Of a stretch of DNA of 23,372 nt, positions 7,119-18,531 are shown piece after piece. The position numbers were made by a program, and so were the translations under genes. Under the pieces are notes generated by a model. The model did no database searches. It was not told the origin of the DNA and worked only from the letters and a program-made list of their open reading frames with translations. The DNA is taken from positions 1 through 23,372 of the IMG/VR virus record IMGVR_UViG_3300045947_000147. One strand, 5' to 3'. Origin of the DNA: a virus. Position 1 is the first letter of the stretch, and every line of letters starts with the position of its first letter.

Positions 7119-7505
7119 ATGATCGAATGGAAACAGCACGATGACGAGGATGCCCCGTTGCGTCCTGAGGTGGATGCCTGGATTGAGGCGTGTGAGGCAG
7201 CATTGAGCTGTCACATCGCCGCGTTGGAAGCCGAAATCGCACGGCTCACGGAAGACCTGCGCCTGTCTCGGCTGGCCGTCGAGGCATGGACCGATAACTC
7301 GAATGCCTGGCAGGCTGAGGCAAAAGCCCTGCGCCAGCCCTGCACATGCAATCCAGTGGGGATTGGGGACGCATGCAATGGCTGCTGCCATGTACGAAAT
7401 GCCCTCGGAGCGTACATCAATCGAGCGATACCCTGGACGCTAGGAACGGAATTGTTAATGGCTTTTGACGCCGCCGTGCAGGCGGTGCGGGAGGGACAGG
7501 GATGA
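7119..7505 (+). CDS. Hypothetical coiled-coil protein with a cysteine cluster
   Basis: A 128-aa protein of unknown function. Residues about 20-72 form a long, Ala/Glu/Leu-rich helix with coiled-coil character; then a cysteine cluster C75, C77, C86, C89, C90 (CTC...CNGCC) may bind metal. ATG 7119 is preferred over GTG 7104 because AGGA ends eight bases before it. Its last codons lie in a 38-bp repeat whose second copy ends the gene at 7963, so both proteins finish with [11 protein letters not shown]. The stop overlaps the next ATG (ATGA). It is the first gene after the candidate origin region. Confidence 0.6.
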   Translation: MIEWKQHDDEDAPLRPEVDAWIEACEAALSCHIAALEAEIARLTEDLRLSRLAVEAWTDNSNAWQAEAKALRQPCTCNPVGIGDACNGCCHVRNALGAYINRAIPWTLGTELLMAFDAAVQAVREGQG

Positions 7506-7506
7506 G
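7469..7506 (+). repeat. 38-bp gene-junction repeat, copy 1
   Basis: Identical to 7927-7964. The unit holds a hairpin (CCGCC-GTGCA-GGCGG), a Gly-rich ribosome binding stretch GGGAGGGACAGGG and the ATGA stop/start overlap joining two genes. It therefore carries the C-terminus of one gene plus the translation signal of the next. A diverged form, with GCCG-TGC-CGGC and GGGAGGGG before ATGA, occurs at about 7677-7705. Confidence 0.85.
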
Positions 7507-7821: not shown

Positions 7822-7963
7822 TGACCCCTGTACGGCCTATGCGCCACGCCCTGCACAGTGGCAAGATTGGCGGGATTGTGAAACCGATGGCCATTATCTC
7901 TGTCGTGAATGTGCTCATCGAACCACCGCCGCCGTGCAGGCGGTGCGGGAGGGACAGGGATGA
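7811..7963 (+). CDS. 50-aa zinc-binding micro-protein
   Basis: A GTG start at 7811 with AGG six bases upstream gives a 50-aa protein with C7, C23, H28, C31, C34 and H36; the core [15 protein letters not shown] is a typical zinc-knuckle pattern seen in small phage proteins. A longer version beginning at 7751 would overlap the 39-aa gene almost completely and is less likely. The C-terminus [11 protein letters not shown] is identical, in DNA as well as protein, to that of the 128-aa protein upstream. It ends in an ATGA overlap with the DUF4031 gene. Confidence 0.6.
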
Positions 7964-7964
7964 G
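7927..7964 (+). repeat. 38-bp gene-junction repeat, copy 2
   Basis: Exact copy of 7469-7506, 458 bp downstream, again spanning gene end, hairpin, ribosome binding site and ATGA. Recombination between copies would delete the three intervening small genes and still leave an in-frame gene end and a working start for the next gene. Confidence 0.85.
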
Positions 7965-8157: not shown

Positions 8158-8302
8158 GTGCCTGCGCTGTCAACGGGCCTTCGAGAGCTGGGGTGCGGCC
8201 AATCGGCTATGTGAGCGCTGTCGCCATAATGACGCGCAGACGGACCCAGGACCGGACGCGAAGCCGCTGCCGTACCTGTTCAAGGAGACGTGGGGGTGGT
8301 GA
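8138..8302 (+). CDS. Zinc-ribbon protein with non-standard start, tail duplicated downstream
   Basis: The frame encodes [10 protein letters not shown]...[11 protein letters not shown]: two CxxC knuckles separated by about 14 residues, a common small phage zinc-ribbon pattern. The frame is open from 7976, but an ATG there would overlap nearly all of DUF4031. No ATG or GTG lies close to the domain; CTG at 8138 gives a family-like N-terminus ([12 protein letters not shown], 54 aa) and TTG at 8063 is an alternative. A +1 frameshift from DUF4031 is also possible. The C-terminus [12 protein letters not shown] lies in a repeat copied after the methyltransferase. Coding is likely; the start is uncertain. 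Confidence 0.5.
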
Positions 8303-8310
8303 GGCTAGGG
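8267..8310 (+). repeat. 44-bp repeat at the upstream edge of the methyltransferase gene
   Basis: Matches 9552-9595 at 40 of 44 positions. It encodes LPYLFKE-WGW and stop of the upstream gene, carries AAGGAG, and includes the GTG-GTG start of the methyltransferase. Together with the second copy it brackets the methyltransferase gene. Confidence 0.8.
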
Positions 8311-9534: not shown

Positions 9535-9587
9535 AACCGAATAGTCACCCCCTGCCGTACCTGTTCAAGGAGGTGTGGGGGTGGTGA
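9531..9587 (+). CDS. 18-aa micro-ORF repeating a gene tail
   Basis: The methyltransferase stop overlaps an ATG (ATGA) that opens an 18-codon frame ending [12 protein letters not shown], the same C-terminus as the zinc-ribbon gene before the methyltransferase. It lies in the second 44-bp repeat. It may be translated by coupling, but more likely it is the remnant left by duplication or by insertion of the methyltransferase cassette. Confidence 0.3.
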   Translation: MKPNSHPLPYLFKEVWGW

Positions 9588-9595
9588 CGTTAGGG
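9552..9595 (+). repeat. 44-bp repeat at the downstream edge of the methyltransferase gene
   Basis: Second copy of 8267-8310 (40 of 44 identical), again with AAGGAG and a GTG-GTG start; the first codons after it (VVTLG) mirror the methyltransferase start (VVRLG). No methyltransferase follows, and a minus-strand zinc-ribbon gene ends inside the repeat at 9590. Confidence 0.8.
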
Positions 9596-11653: not shown

Positions 11654-12355
11654 ATGTTTGAAGTCAAGCACCGCTGGTTAGGAACTATCTTGTTTGCCGT
11701 CGAGGCCGATTCGCTGCGGCGGGCGCTAGAGCTGGCCGTGCAGCAGAGGGCGGACCTCCGTGGGGCTGACCTCGGGGAGGCGAACCTCCGTGGGGCGGAC
11801 CTCCGTCAGGCGAACCTCGTGGAGGCGAACCTCGGGGAGGCGAACCTCCGTGGGGCGAACCTCCGTGGGGCGAACCTCCGTGGGGCGAACCTCGGTGAGG
11901 CGGACCTCCGTGGGGCGAACCTCGGGGGGGCGAACCTCTGGGAGGCGAACCTCGTGGAGGCGGACCTCCGTGAGGCGAACCTCCGTGGGGCGGACCTCCG
12001 TGAGGCGGACCTCGGTGGGGCGAACCTCGGGGGGGCGAACCTCGTGGAGGCGAACCTCGGGGAGGCGAACCTCGGGGAGGCGAAAAACGCCGAGACTGCC
12101 ATATTAGAAACCGGAGAGACACTCGCCACATTTCGAGACGCCGTTGTCCCTGAGCTCATCGCGGCGGGAGGGCATGAGGTGCCAGTCGCGGCCTGGACAT
12201 GCCATAGCTGGGAGAATTGCCCCATGGCGCATGCCTTTGGAGTGCATCAGATCGAGGATATTCCGCTGCTGTATCGGCCGCGTGTGGAGCAATTTATCCG
12301 GCTGTTTGATGCTGGCCTGATTCCGGCACCAGAAACCGAGGCACAACAGGGATAA
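11654..12355 (+). CDS. Pentapeptide-repeat protein with conserved C-terminal domain
   Basis: A 233-aa protein. A short N-terminal strand-rich segment is followed by 22 uninterrupted A(D/N)LxX repeats (33-142), which fold into a right-handed quadrilateral beta-helix; some such proteins mimic DNA (MfpA, Qnr), others have unknown roles. A separate C-terminal domain (about 165-225) has TCHSWENCPMAHAF and a segment ending LFDAGLIP, which I recognise loosely from other phage pentapeptide proteins. The ribosome binding site GGGAGGA lies about eight bases before ATG 11654. The repeat DNA keeps several other frames open on both strands. Gyrase or DNA-binding-protein antagonism is possible but unproved. 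Confidence 0.85.
   Translation: MFEVKHRWLGTILFAVEADSLRRALELAVQQRADLRGADLGEANLRGADLRQANLVEANLGEANLRGANLRGANLRGANLGEADLRGANLGGANLWEANLVEADLREANLRGADLREADLGGANLGGANLVEANLGEANLGEAKNAETAILETGETLATFRDAVVPELIAAGGHEVPVAAWTCHSWENCPMAHAFGVHQIEDIPLLYRPRVEQFIRLFDAGLIPAPETEAQQG
11750..12079 (+). repeat. 22 tandem 15-bp units (pentapeptide-repeat DNA)
   Basis: Each unit encodes A(D/N)LxX with the pattern GCGRACCTCNNNGNG. The third bases are nearly fixed: Leu is always CTC and Ala almost always GCG, so neighbouring units are far more alike in DNA than protein selection needs. This points to recent expansion and gene-conversion-type homogenisation. It is a coding repeat, not a CRISPR array: there are no spacers. 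Confidence 0.9.
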
Positions 12356-12980: not shown

Positions 12981-13246
12981 CCATCTGTATGCCCCCCCAT
13001 CAGCCCTGTTGCACCCGCTGCGGCTTCGTGACCGCGCCGGCCTATTTCGAGGTGAGGACCCATACCCATGAGGGCCACATCGTCACCGAATACTACTGCT
13101 TCCGCCACACCGGCAAAGCCGAGGCCAGAAACCGAGGCGGGGTTCCTGACAGCAGTGATCGAGCTGGCGCGGCTGCACCACTGGAAGGTGTTCCACCAGC
13201 GCCCAGCCCGAACGGCGCATGGGTGGCGCACGGCAGTACAGGGTGA
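12977..13246 (+). CDS. Zinc-knuckle protein overlapping the nuclease gene
   Basis: Starts in an ATGA overlap with the previous gene. Residues 11-42 carry CCTRCG and EYYCFRHTGKAEAR, a plausible metal-binding domain. The following 45 residues (Gly/Pro/Ala-rich) are read in a different frame across the N-terminal third of the VRR-NUC gene, an overlap of about 180 bases, so the tail is probably unconstrained. Either two long-overlapping genes or a once shorter gene that lost its stop. Function unknown. Confidence 0.5.
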   Translation: MTICMPPHQPCCTRCGFVTAPAYFEVRTHTHEGHIVTEYYCFRHTGKAEARNRGGVPDSSDRAGAAAPLEGVPPAPSPNGAWVAHGSTG

Positions 13247-13448
13247 CGCTGGGCTGCCGGATCTGCTGCTGCTGCGTCCGCCACGGCTCATCATCGCCGA
13301 GCTGAAGTCGGCGCTGGGGCGTGTGACGCCAGATCAGGAGGCGTGGCTTCAAGCGTTTGCCCTCGTGCCAGATGTGCATGTCTATGTCTGGCGCCCCGCC
13401 GACTGGCCCGCCATCGAGGCGATCCTGTCCTCAAGGAGGGGACAATGA
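13068..13448 (+). CDS. VRR-NUC domain nuclease
   Basis: A 126-aa PD-(D/E)xK-type nuclease of the VRR-NUC family. Visible are the N-terminal helix AVIELARLHHWKVFHQRPA (29-47), GWRTAVQGDAGLPD (52-65, active-site Asp65), IIAELKS (75-81, Glu78 and Lys80), TPDQEAWLQAF (87-97) and the closing VYVWRPADW (105-113). Phage stand-alone VRR-NUC proteins are thought to act as structure-specific nucleases in recombination or replication. ATG 13068 is the only useful start before the domain, with GAGGTGAGG about ten bases upstream. It overlaps the zinc-knuckle gene by 179 bases and the lipoprotein gene by 4. Confidence 0.85.
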   Translation: MRATSSPNTTASATPAKPRPETEAGFLTAVIELARLHHWKVFHQRPARTAHGWRTAVQGDAGLPDLLLLRPPRLIIAELKSALGRVTPDQEAWLQAFALVPDVHVYVWRPADWPAIEAILSSRRGQ

Positions 13449-14045: not shown

Positions 14046-14594
14046 ATGAAATCGCACGAACCGTTACCCGATGAGCGAGCACTCGCTATCGGCCTGGCCG
14101 TCGTTGGTCTGGTGCTGGTGGCGTGGTTGGCCCATGCCCACGCGCAAAGCGCCTTTGGCATCACGCCGCAGCAGCGGTATTGCCTGGTCGATAACTACGA
14201 CAATTTCTTTGAGCTGCGCATCTACCAGCCGGACAACGGGCAAATGATCATTTTCGGGCATGTGCACGACCTGACACTGCCGAAAAGCGACCCCTGCTAT
14301 ACCCAGGACTATACCGGGAGCGGGCGCCTGTACGATGCGACCACCAAAGGCGCCACACCCCTGCTCGCCAGCTTCACGATCGAGGTGAAAGATGCCAGGC
14401 CCGAGTGCCGTTCGCTTCTGGCGACTTTATCAGGCAGCATCGAAACGACCCCCATCGTCTACGGAGGCGATGTGGTCTTGACGACTAGAGCCCCGGTGAT
14501 GAGTCCGCTGGGAGAAGAGGTGTGGGTGACCTTCGAGGATCGCTTACCCGACTATCTGACGGAGTTATTGCCAAGTTGTAGTGTCCATCCGTAA
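14046..14594 (+). CDS. Exported or membrane-anchored hypothetical protein
   Basis: A 182-aa protein beginning one base after the previous stop, with AAAGGAG upstream. Residues 12-29 are hydrophobic and are followed by AHAHAQS, consistent with a signal-peptidase site or a signal anchor. The rest is mostly beta (RYCLVDNYDNFFELRIYQPDNGQMIIFGHVHDLTL...) with about four Cys that could form disulfides in the periplasm. No family recognised. Third member of a consecutive envelope-directed trio. Confidence 0.65.
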   Translation: MKSHEPLPDERALAIGLAVVGLVLVAWLAHAHAQSAFGITPQQRYCLVDNYDNFFELRIYQPDNGQMIIFGHVHDLTLPKSDPCYTQDYTGSGRLYDATTKGATPLLASFTIEVKDARPECRSLLATLSGSIETTPIVYGGDVVLTTRAPVMSPLGEEVWVTFEDRLPDYLTELLPSCSVHP

Positions 14595-14616
14595 CCGATC
14601 GAAAGGACAGAACGCC

Positions 14617-14883
14617 ATGGACGCCTGGCAGGACATCGACACCGCAAGCTTGTTCGAAGCCCTCTGTTGCTGGCTCGTGAAAGCCCCGTGCACCATCAGT
14701 GTCAAGGAAACACCGAATACGCTGCTCCTGGAGATCACCGTGCCCCCGTCCCACGTTGGGCAGCTCATCGGCAAGGGAGGCGAGACGATCCGGGCGCTGC
14801 GGCGGTTGAGCATGACCGGACGCACGAGAGAACAACAGATTGTCATCAACGTGATGGACGGGACATCAGGATCAAAGCTCTGA
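14617..14883 (+). CDS. KH-domain RNA-binding protein (KhpA-like)
   Basis: An 88-aa single-KH protein. The segment VPPSHVGQLIGKGGETIRALRRL (42-64) contains the GxxG loop GKGG (52-55) in the standard helix-loop-helix context, and the protein ends with the final beta strand (QIVINVMDG). Size and layout match bacterial KhpA/YlqC, a cytoplasmic RNA chaperone that partners with KhpB, which is not present here. AAAGGA lies nine bases before ATG 14617; the longer frame from 14581 overlaps the previous gene and lacks such a site. It is the last early gene, just before the terminator, and may act on phage or host mRNA. Confidence 0.8.
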   Translation: MDAWQDIDTASLFEALCCWLVKAPCTISVKETPNTLLLEITVPPSHVGQLIGKGGETIRALRRLSMTGRTREQQIVINVMDGTSGSKL

Positions 14884-14945
14884 CAGACAGGGGAAGTCAC
14901 GAAAGGAGGTGCCACCGACGAGCGTTAACTAAGAAGCATGGGAGA

Positions 14946-14981
14946 GGGCGCCTGGAGGAAAGCCGGGCGCCCTTGCTTTTT
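14946..14981 (+). terminator. Intrinsic terminator at the convergent boundary
   Basis: GGGCGCC (14946-14952) pairs with GGCGCCC (14966-14972) across a 13-base loop, followed by TTGC and TTTTT (14977-14981). It ends the rightward early transcript. On the other strand no T-run follows, so it should be mainly one-directional. The T-run includes the stop codon of the leftward receiver gene, leaving no spare sequence. Confidence 0.75.
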
Positions 14982-15672
14982 ATGGTTTCCACCCCATGCG
15001 CTGGGCCAGCCAGGCGACCCCCACCGCCGTCAAGATTGTGCCCACTGTGGTCACGATACCCGCCCACAAGCCCCACTTGCCTTTTTCCCGCTCCGTCTGT
15101 CGGGCGCTGAGCTGGGCCTGCAGCAAGTCAATTTTGGACTGCAACACCCCAATGTCCTCTTCGTCCTGCTTCCGCCGCGTCTCCGTGACCACGAGCTGTT
15201 CCCGCACCTGGCGCAGCTCGCGCACCTCGCGCTGCAGCTCGGTAATCGCCTGCGCGTTCTGGCTGAGGCTCAAGAGTTGATGTTGCTGGGCTTGATGCCG
15301 TGCCACGGCAAAGAGCATCGCCTCCCGCAAAAGCCGCTCCGCAATTTCCGGCTCGATCGCCGCATCCGGCTTAAAGACACACCCCACGGCCCCCTGTCGA
15401 ATCAGGCTAGCCGCATAGGCCGGATAATGCAAGGCGGTAAACACGAGCACCGCCGTCTGGGGACACACGTCCAGCACTTTGGTGAGCGCATCGCCGTTCG
15501 TCGTACCGGGCATACGGAGATCGGTGAGGATCAGATCATATTCCTGGGCGGCAGCCATCGTGAGCCCTGCCGTGAGATTGTCGGCATAGTCGAGCCTGGC
15601 GCCTTCAGGCATCGCCTGCTTGACGAGGAGGTGTGCGCTTTCTTCGTCGTCAATCAGGAGCACGAGGATCAC
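14980..15672 (-). CDS. CheY-like receiver domain fused to coiled coil and C-terminal membrane anchor
   Basis: A 230-aa protein, last gene of the leftward operon. Residues 1-120 are a response-regulator receiver with all key positions: acidic pair D8-D9 (LLIDDEES), phospho-acceptor D51 (LILTDLRMPG), T79 (VFTA) and K101 (VFKPD), so it could be phosphorylated. Residues about 125-195 form a charged coiled coil; about 200-222 (WGLWAGIVTTVGTILTAVGVAWL) is one transmembrane helix near the C-terminus, a layout like XhlA-type holin accessory proteins. No DNA-binding output domain exists. The frame opens at 15810, but GTG 15672 with AGGAGGTG just upstream gives the usual receiver start. No kinase gene is in the window. 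It follows holin-like and sigma-like genes. Confidence 0.8.
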   Translation of the reverse strand: MILVLLIDDEESAHLLVKQAMPEGARLDYADNLTAGLTMAAAQEYDLILTDLRMPGTTNGDALTKVLDVCPQTAVLVFTALHYPAYAASLIRQGAVGCVFKPDAAIEPEIAERLLREAMLFAVARHQAQQHQLLSLSQNAQAITELQREVRELRQVREQLVVTETRRKQDEEDIGVLQSKIDLLQAQLSARQTEREKGKWGLWAGIVTTVGTILTAVGVAWLAQRMGWKP

Positions 15673-15694
15673 GCACCTCCTCAGGCTTGTCTCG

Positions 15695-16180
15695 TCACCG
15701 GGCCACCATCTGGCGGTGCGTGGCCGTCCGGGCCGCCAGGCACCGTTTACAGCGAATCGAGACCCCGTGACTGGACTCATAGCGATACCACCAGCGCGGG
15801 GCATGGGCACAATGACGGCGCGTCATCGCCTCCTCATTCGCCGCCATCTCGAGCAGCCAATCCGGTAGCCGAGACAACGCTTGCCGGGCCATCGTGAGCC
15901 GGGCGGGATCATAGGGCCGTTGATGCCAGAGGGCATACAGCACTTCCGGGCTGCCCCGGCTGACCCGCTCCCGGTGGCGCGTATGCTGATGCGCCTGGCT
16001 GATCAGCGCGTCATGGTAGCCGGCGCGGGCCAGACATCGCGCCAGAAAACGGAAGCGCCGCGAACGATCGACGGGGGCTTGTCGCAGTGTGAGATACATC
16101 GCCTCCTGGGCAATATCCTCACCATAGACGCACCGCAGCGCCACATAGGCGTCGAGCAGATCCGTCGCCTCGGCGCTCAT
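15695..16180 (-). CDS. Sigma-factor-like protein with C-terminal zinc motif (tentative)
   Basis: A 161-aa protein. YGEDIAQEAMYLTL (about 19-32) followed by RFRFLARCLARAGYHDALI and an Arg-rich stretch resembles sigma70/ECF region 2, where an AEDLVQEVF segment is followed by a WLYRIARNLAIDxxR helix. LSRLPDWLLEMA (102-113) could be a remnant of region 4. The C-terminus has HCAHAP and IRCKRC, a possible zinc site not normal in sigma factors. It starts in an ATGA overlap with the FN3-like gene and ends 22 bases before the receiver gene. A plain DNA-binding or structural protein is the alternative; the assignment is by pattern only. Confidence 0.4.
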   Translation of the reverse strand: MSAEATDLLDAYVALRCVYGEDIAQEAMYLTLRQAPVDRSRRFRFLARCLARAGYHDALISQAHQHTRHRERVSRGSPEVLYALWHQRPYDPARLTMARQALSRLPDWLLEMAANEEAMTRRHCAHAPRWWYRYESSHGVSIRCKRCLAARTATHRQMVAR

Positions 16181-16521
16181 GGCAGAATCGCCAGCGTCCC
16201 GCCTTCAATGCGCAGATTGAGCACCGCGCCAGGCCCCAGCCAGACAATGCTCGCATCGGGGCCTTGCCCACCCGTGCCCACGGCGCCGACATGAAACCAC
16301 TTCCCCCGGTCAGCATCTTGTAAGGCAAAGCTCGTGGTCGTCGGCTCGCCTAACACCGTCTTGGGGCCCGCCTGCGTATCACTGCGAGCCACCACATAGC
16401 GGAGAATGCCTGAGGTGATCGGCTGGCCATTCTCCAGCGTCGTGGGCGGATCCCACTGCAGCGTGGCAGCCAGGGCGGGGAATGGGGAAAGCAGTAGCAG
16501 GACAAGCCAGAGTGAGCGCAT
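16177..16521 (-). CDS. Exported fibronectin-III-like domain protein
   Basis: A 114-aa protein with a clear signal peptide, MRSLWLVLLLLSPFPALAA, and a mature part of one beta-sandwich domain: LQWDPPTTLENGQPI at the start and RYVVARSD strand spacing are typical of FN3-like folds. ATG 16521 is set by AGGAGG eight bases upstream; that site includes the stop of the holin-like gene. It would be secreted to the periplasm or cell surface. Phage FN3 domains usually sit in tail proteins without signal peptides, so a free exported copy in a lysis-type cluster is unusual. Confidence 0.65.
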   Translation of the reverse strand: MRSLWLVLLLLSPFPALAATLQWDPPTTLENGQPITSGILRYVVARSDTQAGPKTVLGEPTTTSFALQDADRGKWFHVGAVGTGGQGPDASIVWLGPGAVLNLRIEGGTLAILP

Positions 16522-16532
16522 GGAGAGCCCTC

Positions 16533-16742
16533 CTATTTGGGATTGCCACGTTGCGCAAACCAGAAACTGAGCACCGCCGTCGTCATCGTGAGAAAGCCGT
16601 CGATCGGCACCACGCCGGTCACCGTGAGCCACAGAAACGTCACGGTAAAGGCGACCGTGACCAGTGGCCGCACCAGAGCCCGCCCTACGTCGAGGATCAC
16701 ATCTGCCGTCCCGGTGATTTCATTCTCGGCATCGTCTGGCAT
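16533..16742 (-). CDS. Small holin-like membrane protein
   Basis: A 69-aa protein with two hydrophobic helices (about 23-45, LVRPLVTVAFTVTFLWLTVTG, and 50-63, FLTMTTAVLSFWF) and a short basic end AQRGNPK. Length, two segments, the VTG turn and the closing FWFAQR match a common class of phage holin-like proteins. It would form membrane lesions at lysis. AAAGGAGG lies five bases before ATG 16742. Neighbours are a TM/coiled-coil protein and the exported FN3 protein; no endolysin was recognised in the window. Confidence 0.6.
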   Translation of the reverse strand: MPDDAENEITGTADVILDVGRALVRPLVTVAFTVTFLWLTVTGVVPIDGFLTMTTAVLSFWFAQRGNPK

Positions 16743-16751
16743 AGACCTCCT

Positions 16752-17117
16752 TTATGGTCCCCCATACTCTTCCGGTACCAGTTGCCGATATCCCGGCGCC
16801 TTCAGCCCACTCAGGGCGCGCTCATGGGCGTTGAAGCGATTCGCCATCTGGGCGCTTTCCTCGGCATGGGCGCGATAGTGCTGGCGCAGCTCATGGCCCA
16901 GCGCCTCCACACGCTGGGCCAGCGCCGTGGCCTGCTCCATGAACGGTTCGCGTCGAGTGAGAACCAGCTCCATGCGTGTCACGTCCAGGCGTAAATCGCG
17001 CACCTCACGGCGAAGATCCGAGATAATGACTCCCGTGGTCGCTTGGAGCATGATGGCCACGGCGCCCAGGATCCAATAGAGCAGCTTCGTGCTGCCATCG
17101 CCCTGCTGGGTGACCAT
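16752..17117 (-). CDS. N-terminally membrane-anchored coiled-coil protein (spanin- or XhlA-like)
   Basis: A 121-aa protein: one transmembrane helix (about 11-32, KLLYWILGAVAIMLQATTGVII) then a long charged coiled coil (33-105) and a short Pro/Tyr-rich end. This layout resembles inner-membrane spanins (Rz) or similar lysis accessories. The frame begins further up, but ATG 17117, four bases after the upstream stop, is preferred and would depend on translational coupling because no good ribosome binding site is seen. Position next to the holin-like gene supports a lysis role; a minor virion protein is the alternative. Confidence 0.5.
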   Translation of the reverse strand: MVTQQGDGSTKLLYWILGAVAIMLQATTGVIISDLRREVRDLRLDVTRMELVLTRREPFMEQATALAQRVEALGHELRQHYRAHAEESAQMANRFNAHERALSGLKAPGYRQLVPEEYGGP

Positions 17118-17121
17118 GGCA

Positions 17122-18531
17122 TTACTGTGCTGCCAGCTGGCCAGAGGTCTGCAAAAACCCCCGCAACGCCGCCGCACCCGTGGGCGTCAATAACGTGCCC
17201 GCATTCGCCAGCCCACGCACCACCGCACGCCCTGGCTCTGTCATGAGCACAAAGGGCAAGGCCGTCATCGTCGCGGTAATCGCCGCTGCGGTTTGCGGGT
17301 CAAGCCCCAACGCGAAGCCTGTCGCCCCCCCGCCAATACCTGCCACACCCCCCGAGCCATAGGATGCGCCAGGCGAGGCGCCCATACGTGGTAGCTGGGC
17401 GATCGCCGTCAAGGTCTCCCGAATATCGCCAAGTTCCGCCGCATTAAACGCGCCAGCAAAGAGGTCATCCTCCCGCATGGCCTTCTCGAAACGCCTCATA
17501 ATCGCGCCGGCGTCAATGCGTGGCGTGCCCTGGCCCTGCACGATGCGTTGCACGTTACCTTCGATCGCGCTGGTCAAATCCTTGAGCGCTTCTTGCTTGC
17601 GATAGGTCGCATTCGCGGCCTTGAGCGCCGCTGAGAGGGGGCCAGGGGTCGCTTCCACATCGCGCATAATGGCGCCGTCAATGATGCGCCGCGTTCCTTG
17701 ATCGAGTCCGCCCGCGGCGGTCATCTGTTGCCGAAGTTGCTTTTGCGCGAGCCAGACATCTTGGAAATCCGTGGTGGGGGCTCGCTGCGCCATGTCGAGC
17801 CACCCTTCTGCGGCATTGACAATCACCTCCGAGCGTTGCTGCGGTGCCAGGCGCCTTTGTTGGTCAAGCAGCTTCCCCGCGACCTTCGCCGTTTCGTTGA
17901 GCCGCACGGGCGGGTTCACCTGCGCCACCCGATCATACAGAATATCCGCGCTGGGGCGTGGCACCAACCGTGCGGCCAGGTCATCGGCCTGTTGCACGCC
18001 CATTTCCTGCAAGCCATAGCTCACACCGGGGAGCCGCTTCGCCACGGCGGCGATGCCATGCCCGAGCCCTTTCATCGCGGCCGGCCCCACGACAGAGGCA
18101 ATATCCCCCACACGGCCCGGCTCTTCCAGTCCTAGCGCCACATTGAGGCGCCTCGCCGCCACACTGCCCGCCGTCTCACCCAGCAGCGCCCCGCCCGGAA
18201 TAGGCGTCATGGTGCCCAGTGCGGTGCCAGCCATCGGCAGCCCCATGCCAATCGCCTGAGTTAACACCATGCGGCCACCGGGGTCGTCTGGCGTGGAGGG
18301 CACCCCTTCAAACTCAGGAGAGGCCATCTCCGGCCGCATGGGGAATGCGGGACGTTGTAACTCCTCCGCAATGAGGGCGCGGCGGCGGGCCTGTGCGGCG
18401 TCATACGTGCCCTTGGCGCGTTCTTTGGGGGTCAGAATGTGCGTCTGAATGGCCTCGCCAATTTGGTCATCGCTGAGGCTATCAGGAAACTCGACAATTC
18501 CATGGCCAGGGACTTCGACATATTTGGGCAT
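17122..18531 (-). CDS. Virion-internal / DNA-ejection-type protein
   Basis: A 469-aa protein. The N-terminus YVEVPGHGIVEFPDSLSDD with DQIGEAI is a motif shared by many large internal or ejection proteins of short-tailed phages. Two Gly/Ala-rich hydrophobic stretches (about 90-125 and 395-430) could enter membranes during DNA ejection, as for T7 gp15/gp16-type proteins; the middle is helical. ATG 18531 overlaps the upstream TAA (TAATG). Length is moderate for such proteins. The virion assignment follows from motif and context; the exact role is inferred. Confidence 0.6.
   Translation of the reverse strand: MPKYVEVPGHGIVEFPDSLSDDQIGEAIQTHILTPKERAKGTYDAAQARRRALIAEELQRPAFPMRPEMASPEFEGVPSTPDDPGGRMVLTQAIGMGLPMAGTALGTMTPIPGGALLGETAGSVAARRLNVALGLEEPGRVGDIASVVGPAAMKGLGHGIAAVAKRLPGVSYGLQEMGVQQADDLAARLVPRPSADILYDRVAQVNPPVRLNETAKVAGKLLDQQRRLAPQQRSEVIVNAAEGWLDMAQRAPTTDFQDVWLAQKQLRQQMTAAGGLDQGTRRIIDGAIMRDVEATPGPLSAALKAANATYRKQEALKDLTSAIEGNVQRIVQGQGTPRIDAGAIMRRFEKAMREDDLFAGAFNAAELGDIRETLTAIAQLPRMGASPGASYGSGGVAGIGGGATGFALGLDPQTAAAITATMTALPFVLMTEPGRAVVRGLANAGTLLTPTGAAALRGFLQTSGQLAAQ

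Follow-up and report, generated by a model that had tools for sequence, protein, structure and literature searches.

The window, by which we mean the whole stretch analysed and thus the entire viral record of 23.4 kb, encodes on its minus strand a protein of 230 aa in which a receiver domain is joined through a long helix to a predicted C-terminal membrane anchor. The gene closes the leftward late gene run, is a real gene and no chance ORF, and has a full-length copy (74% identical) in a sister phage (L088, 41,943 bp; the same sequence is found in L087). On the basis of the observed domains, conserved residues, purifying selection and gene order, as well as the recurrent placement of receivers in lysis cassettes that was observed in other phages, we tentatively favour a role as a lysis-cassette receiver, which would be tethered to the membrane, phosphorylated by the host, and active at a late membrane or lysis step. 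The coordinates 14980-15672 given in the preliminary description of this DNA were right, and the minus strand, which had been left unstated there, is added in the following list of features:

15672..14980, minus strand: protein of 230 aa made up of receiver, long helix and C-terminal anchor, read from a GTG at 15672 to a stop at 14980
15352..15663, minus strand: receiver domain, residues 4-107, with D8, D9, D51, T79, and K101
15073..15351, minus strand: long helix extending alpha-5, residues 108-200, with a partial heptad pattern (140-200)
15001..15069, minus strand: predicted C-terminal transmembrane anchor, residues 202-224; the sister sequence differs, with hydrophobicity kept
15676..15681, minus strand: Shine-Dalgarno-like AGGAGG, 3 nt ahead of the GTG, a short spacing
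15695..16180, minus strand: upstream neighbour of 161 aa with no family match, missing from the sister cassette
16177..16521, minus strand: exported protein with a signal-like N-terminus and weak fn3 similarity, missing from the sister cassette
16533..16742, minus strand: small holin-like membrane protein, 69 aa, matching phrog_13256 (function unknown)
16752..17177, minus strand: protein with one transmembrane helix, then a coil-like region; start uncertain, an ATG about 20 codons downstream being possible
14581..14883, plus strand: convergent gene for a KH-domain protein (KhpA/B-like), kept in the sister (56% identical)
14944..14974, no strand: terminator-like hairpin (stem of 12 pairs) where the receiver and KH genes converge

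Residues 4-102 matched the Pfam family Response_reg (PF00072) with 53.5 bits (E 3e-14; curated cut-off 30.2), and the five canonical receiver residues that had been read from the sequence (D8, D9, D51, T79, and K101) were all located by script in the window protein and are present in the sister copy. The usual aromatic switch position, three residues before the Lys, is occupied by Cys in both phages (position 98); an aromatic residue is typical there, not universal, and its absence is no bar to PF00072 membership. Both Pfam and NCBIfam showed the receiver part only, i.e., no DNA-binding output domain after the receiver, as had been described, and no effector domain of the OmpR, NarL or NtrC type. 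An AlphaFold2 model built from three sequences (the window protein, its sister copy, and a third receiver, encoded on a retrieved viral contig) reached a mean pLDDT of 79.7 and contained a full (beta-alpha)5 receiver, with one helix (108-225) continuing alpha-5; pLDDT was 76-92 across residues 1-100 and weak (53-62) at the C-terminal hydrophobic stretch. When a single sequence was used, the rod was modelled well and the receiver poorly. The best solved matches in VIA-align were NtrC1 (Z 18.6) and DgcR (18.4), followed by other receivers. The closest folds include DgcR, WspR, PleD, and RssB, in each of which alpha-5 runs into a signalling helix as it does in the window protein, but these proteins end in an enzyme or adaptor domain where the window protein ends in a membrane anchor.

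The excess of a/d heptad positions is limited to residues 140-200 (p about 0.015), and the 3.5-residue Fourier signal in the helix is not significant. As heptad order is significant only in this segment and by one of two measures, the long helix is likely, though not certainly, a coiled coil; the long helix of the preliminary description thus stands, and its coiled coil is retained as likely. Weak profile matches in the coil region (TIGR04211, DruC, Mis12 and similar) were discounted as coil composition. The C-terminal hydrophobic stretch (about 202-224), predicted as a transmembrane helix in both descriptions, has a Kyte-Doolittle mean of 1.78, and positive charge is greater on its N-terminal flank, which fits a cytoplasmic receiver. 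A coil followed by one C-terminal membrane helix is also the layout of XhlA-type haemolysin/holin accessory proteins (PF10779), the likeness proposed earlier. XhlA differs in that the window protein bears a receiver and has no profile match to the family: residues 113-230 gave none at a threshold of E 10, a search in which most matches with E above about 0.1 are removed by HMMER's filters. Family membership was therefore dismissed and the likeness is one of layout only.

The sister phage was found only via a search with the motif LTDLRMPG. A soluble C-terminal helix in homologues, or loss of D51 in related phages, had previously been named as grounds for abandoning the description; the sister copy has the same fusion at full length, retains all catalytic residues including D51, and its anchor is changed in sequence yet more hydrophobic (Kyte-Doolittle mean 2.06). 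Changes between the window and sister genes are distributed over the codon positions as 59:29:117, giving a dN/dS of about 0.15 overall and 0.07-0.08 for residues 46-200, ratios which are rough because dS is near saturation. Conservation is strongest in the helix and in the alpha4-beta5-alpha5 region. At the other extreme, identity falls to 47% in residues 10-45 (alpha1-alpha2, the usual kinase-contact side of receivers), where dN/dS is not measurable. The opposite-strand open frame is interrupted by stops in the sister. The full-length copy, the retained residues and anchor, and the low dN/dS together argue for a real, selected gene.

Near-identical contigs overlap both ends of the window and together imply a genome of ~42 kb, with a portal and adaptor of the SU10-like type. 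Only two distinct copies of the gene are known for this phage type. Receivers were found in 0 of 38 terminase-sharing records (about eight of them >40 kb), which indicates that the receiver gene is an acquisition of a single lineage. In public phage records, no further protein matched the window protein over its full length. Viral contigs yielded no match in close-pattern scans, whether these used the receiver gene or its upstream neighbour, nor in a scan based on the two-sequence receiver alignment, for which the patterns chosen were poor. Receiver matches in 'Listeria phage LM', a fecal 'Bacteriophage sp.' and 'Acinetobacter phage MD-2021a' were dropped as probably bacterial sequence. A genome scan with the terminase returned a single contig, from a Bacteroidetes MAG, which did not provide a usable host.

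The receiver gene ends the leftward run in both phages, and the sister keeps the convergent KH gene and, in a run, the tail, TM-coil and holin-like genes. An HNH gene stands there in place of the two upstream genes of the window and separates the receiver from the membrane genes. One of these two (15695-16180) had been considered sigma-factor-like by eye, a reading that no profile backs. Terminator-like sites numbered 9 in the window vs 2.7 expected in shuffles; the hairpin at 14944..14974 is not conserved in the sister, where the receiver and KH stop codons lie 3 bp apart. As for the holin-like neighbours of the preliminary description, the small membrane gene of 69 aa is indeed present, but neither it nor the other neighbours matched a lysis-family profile, and no endolysin was found among ten proteins of the window and near-identical phage pieces. 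Since the membrane genes of the window match no lysis family, the link to lysis is weaker here than in the Alteromonas phages described below.

The CheY-like gene of Alteromonas phage V22 (PMC7289586, PMC10579305) provided the lead to a wider group. Stand-alone receivers are present in nine annotated Alteromonas phages (V22, A5, XX1924, PB15, R8W, H4/4, and R9Y1-3), which span at least four lineages (myovirus, schitovirus, autographivirus, and other tailed types). These proteins, among them V22 gp30, A5 gp11, R8W gp48 and H4/4 gp44, resemble the window protein in their catalytic residues, the lack of a DNA-binding output and a gene in the late region. They differ from it in being shorter (about 125-153 aa), with the membrane-coil part in a separate, adjacent gene, whereas the coil is fused to the receiver in the window and L088. 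Gene context was inspected in seven of them (XX1924, PB15, R8W, H4/4, R9Y2, V22, and A5, in all of which the coil gene is the adjacent one), and in 7/7 the receiver belongs to the lysis cassette or borders on it, with a holin, endolysin or Rz-like spanin no more than two genes away, and is directly preceded by a small gene encoding a membrane helix and a coil. In XX1924 the order is a 101-aa gene with a coil and C-terminal membrane helix (also an XhlA-type layout), the receiver (4-nt overlap), DUF5675, and a 3TM holin (GTA_holin_3TM, PF11351, E 1e-14). PB15 has the same pair; an M15 peptidase gene comes next, together with a holin-like gene of almost the same sequence as in XX1924. R8W and H4/4 encode a class II holin, TM-coil, receiver and membrane protein, R9Y2 a TM-coil, receiver and GH108 endolysin, and V22 and A5 a TM-coil, receiver and Rz-like spanin (phrog_4297, E 7e-6 and 3e-8).

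Homology across phage types was seen for the TM-coil partners (R8W/R9Y2, E 4e-9; V22/A5, E 6e-7) and likewise for the receivers (R8W with R9Y2, V22 with A5), so that the pair seems, judging from these sequences, to travel between phages as a unit. D8, D9, D51 and K101 are retained in 8/8 aligned receivers, of which the six from Alteromonas phages are 16-25% identical to the window receiver. The chance that receivers in four lineages would all come to lie no more than two genes from a lysis gene was crudely estimated at 7e-5, assuming independent lineages and uniform placement, both of which are doubtful; the Alteromonas modules may share a history, which would weaken the count of independent cases. 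The possible phospho-control of lysis suggested earlier for the window protein gains support from these cassettes of at least four Alteromonas phage lineages.

The window protein resembles a fusion of the membrane-coil and receiver genes that form a pair in the Alteromonas phages. The fused order (receiver, helix, anchor) differs from the gene order of the pairs, in which the membrane-coil comes first, and this mismatch, together with the 16-25% identity, speaks against assuming a common origin of fusion and pairs.

In the mechanism that we favour, a helical rod and tail anchor would tether a phosphorylatable receiver to the inner membrane on its cytoplasmic side. The protein would be expressed late, alongside the tail and lysis genes, as suggested by a gene position that closes the leftward tail/lysis run. 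No histidine kinase (HATPase_c) was found in the five records of the window phage and its sister, and the phosphate would hence come from a host kinase or a small phosphodonor. Once phosphorylated, the receiver would pair differently through its alpha4-beta5-alpha5 face and through the helix emerging from alpha-5. The anchored helix bundle would then meet a neighbouring membrane protein (holin, spanin or TM-coil) in another way, which would alter when, or how far, a late membrane step proceeds; this step would most likely be lysis. In the Alteromonas phages the same device would consist of a membrane-coil gene followed by the receiver, and in the window phage and its sister of one fused gene. 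We infer late expression, membrane insertion, phosphorylation, the target and the effect on lysis; the Cys at the switch position, as well as the moderate coiled-coil signal and anchor hydrophobicity, are points against this reading. More doubtful is its extension to several unrelated tailed-phage lineages, which would all carry a lysis-control module made of a coil-tethered inner-membrane receiver (fused or in two genes) that reads host phosphorylation and times a membrane step.

The main alternative is that the protein serves as a phosphate sink or kinase decoy: the anchored receiver would drain membrane histidine kinases and thereby silence an envelope-stress or other response late in infection, or block superinfection, adjacency to lysis genes then reflecting late expression only. 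A full catalytic set without an output domain would suit such a role, and anchoring would bring the receiver close to membrane kinases. Phages are known to attack host kinases: the protein PIT4 of Pseudomonas phage LSL4 binds FleS, PilS and PA2882 (PMC10714779) and is, like the window protein in this reading, aimed at host two-component signalling, although it differs in being the product of an early gene. The fast-changing alpha1-alpha2 face would also be expected of a sink if the partner kinase varies by host, but it suits either reading, and a sink would need neither the conserved 90-residue helix (83% identical to the sister, dN/dS 0.08) nor a regular position next to a membrane-coil gene within lysis cassettes. 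Helix and cassette placement favour the lysis reading, and we regard the sink as rather unlikely.

It is improbable that the receiver is host-adaptation cargo, either an auxiliary metabolic gene or a moron, and unconnected with lysis. Cargo of this kind has been the published interpretation, with the V22 receiver reported as a class II auxiliary gene (PMC7289586) and R8W gp48 as a DNA-binding, PhoB-like auxiliary gene (PMC8228385); in the papers found, the Alteromonas receivers are called auxiliary genes or PhoB and are not linked to lysis. The lineage-specific occurrence of the window gene, absent from the 38 terminase relatives, would agree with cargo. R8W gp48 (L102:2992-3453), however, is a bare receiver of 153 aa in which Pfam showed the receiver domain only, so the PhoB identity is ruled out by the absence of a DNA-binding domain, and the repeated position between membrane-coil and lysis genes would be unexpected for cargo. 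Least probable, by a small step, is a phospho-independent scaffold, in which the receiver fold would serve dimerisation only and the helix and anchor would form a structural holin or spanin accessory: Cys at the aromatic switch position in both phages and the strongest conservation in the helix and alpha4-beta5-alpha5 region would agree with it, but unused catalytic residues usually erode, and D8, D9, D51 and K101 are kept in all eight receivers despite the low identity of the Alteromonas ones to that of the window.

For most phages, lysis timing is regarded as a clock intrinsic to the holin. Receivers, phage CheY-like proteins, coil-plus-anchor lysis accessories and transcriptional phosphorelay control of lysis are each known singly. 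The last is exemplified by CtrA, whose phosphorelay controls gene transfer agent lysis in Rhodobacter through transcription (PMC6363796); there too a host phosphorelay governs lytic release, but CtrA is a host transcription factor acting on lysis-gene expression, whereas the window encodes a phage receiver without a DNA-binding domain. In the open-access literature, which leaves most subscription papers outside and does not establish priority, we found no description of a phage receiver built into a membrane-anchored rod or of recurrent bare receivers in lysis cassettes. If the favoured reading is true, a tethered receiver in lysis cassettes lets host physiology reach the lysis clock via phosphorylation, without transcription. 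The data suggest that host signalling may, in some phages, be allowed to act on late membrane events, lysis among them, and the published genes V22 gp30, A5 gp11 and R8W gp48 should be reread in this light; since several of these Alteromonas phages can be propagated on cultured hosts, the idea of lysis control is directly testable.

Other features were recorded in the two genomes. In the window, the plus strand encodes an exported protein with no family match (14046-14594), which is 64% identical in the sister in otherwise diverged surroundings, a VRR-NUC domain nuclease barely over its curated cut-off (13068-13448), and a pentapeptide-repeat protein (11654-12355) that is a possible DNA mimic, with HetL, MfpA and Qnr matches under their cut-offs. 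The terminase large subunit of the sister phage (G044, L096:16131-18540; also G043) is an open frame of about 800 aa in which a ~250-aa insert splits the P-loop (GK / C...HHN / TS) and resembles a Walker A intein; the window terminase is without the insert. The rightward region of the window contains near-identical repeats of 38 bp (7469-7506 / 7927-7964) and 47 bp (8264-8310 / 9549-9595), which are possibly regulatory.
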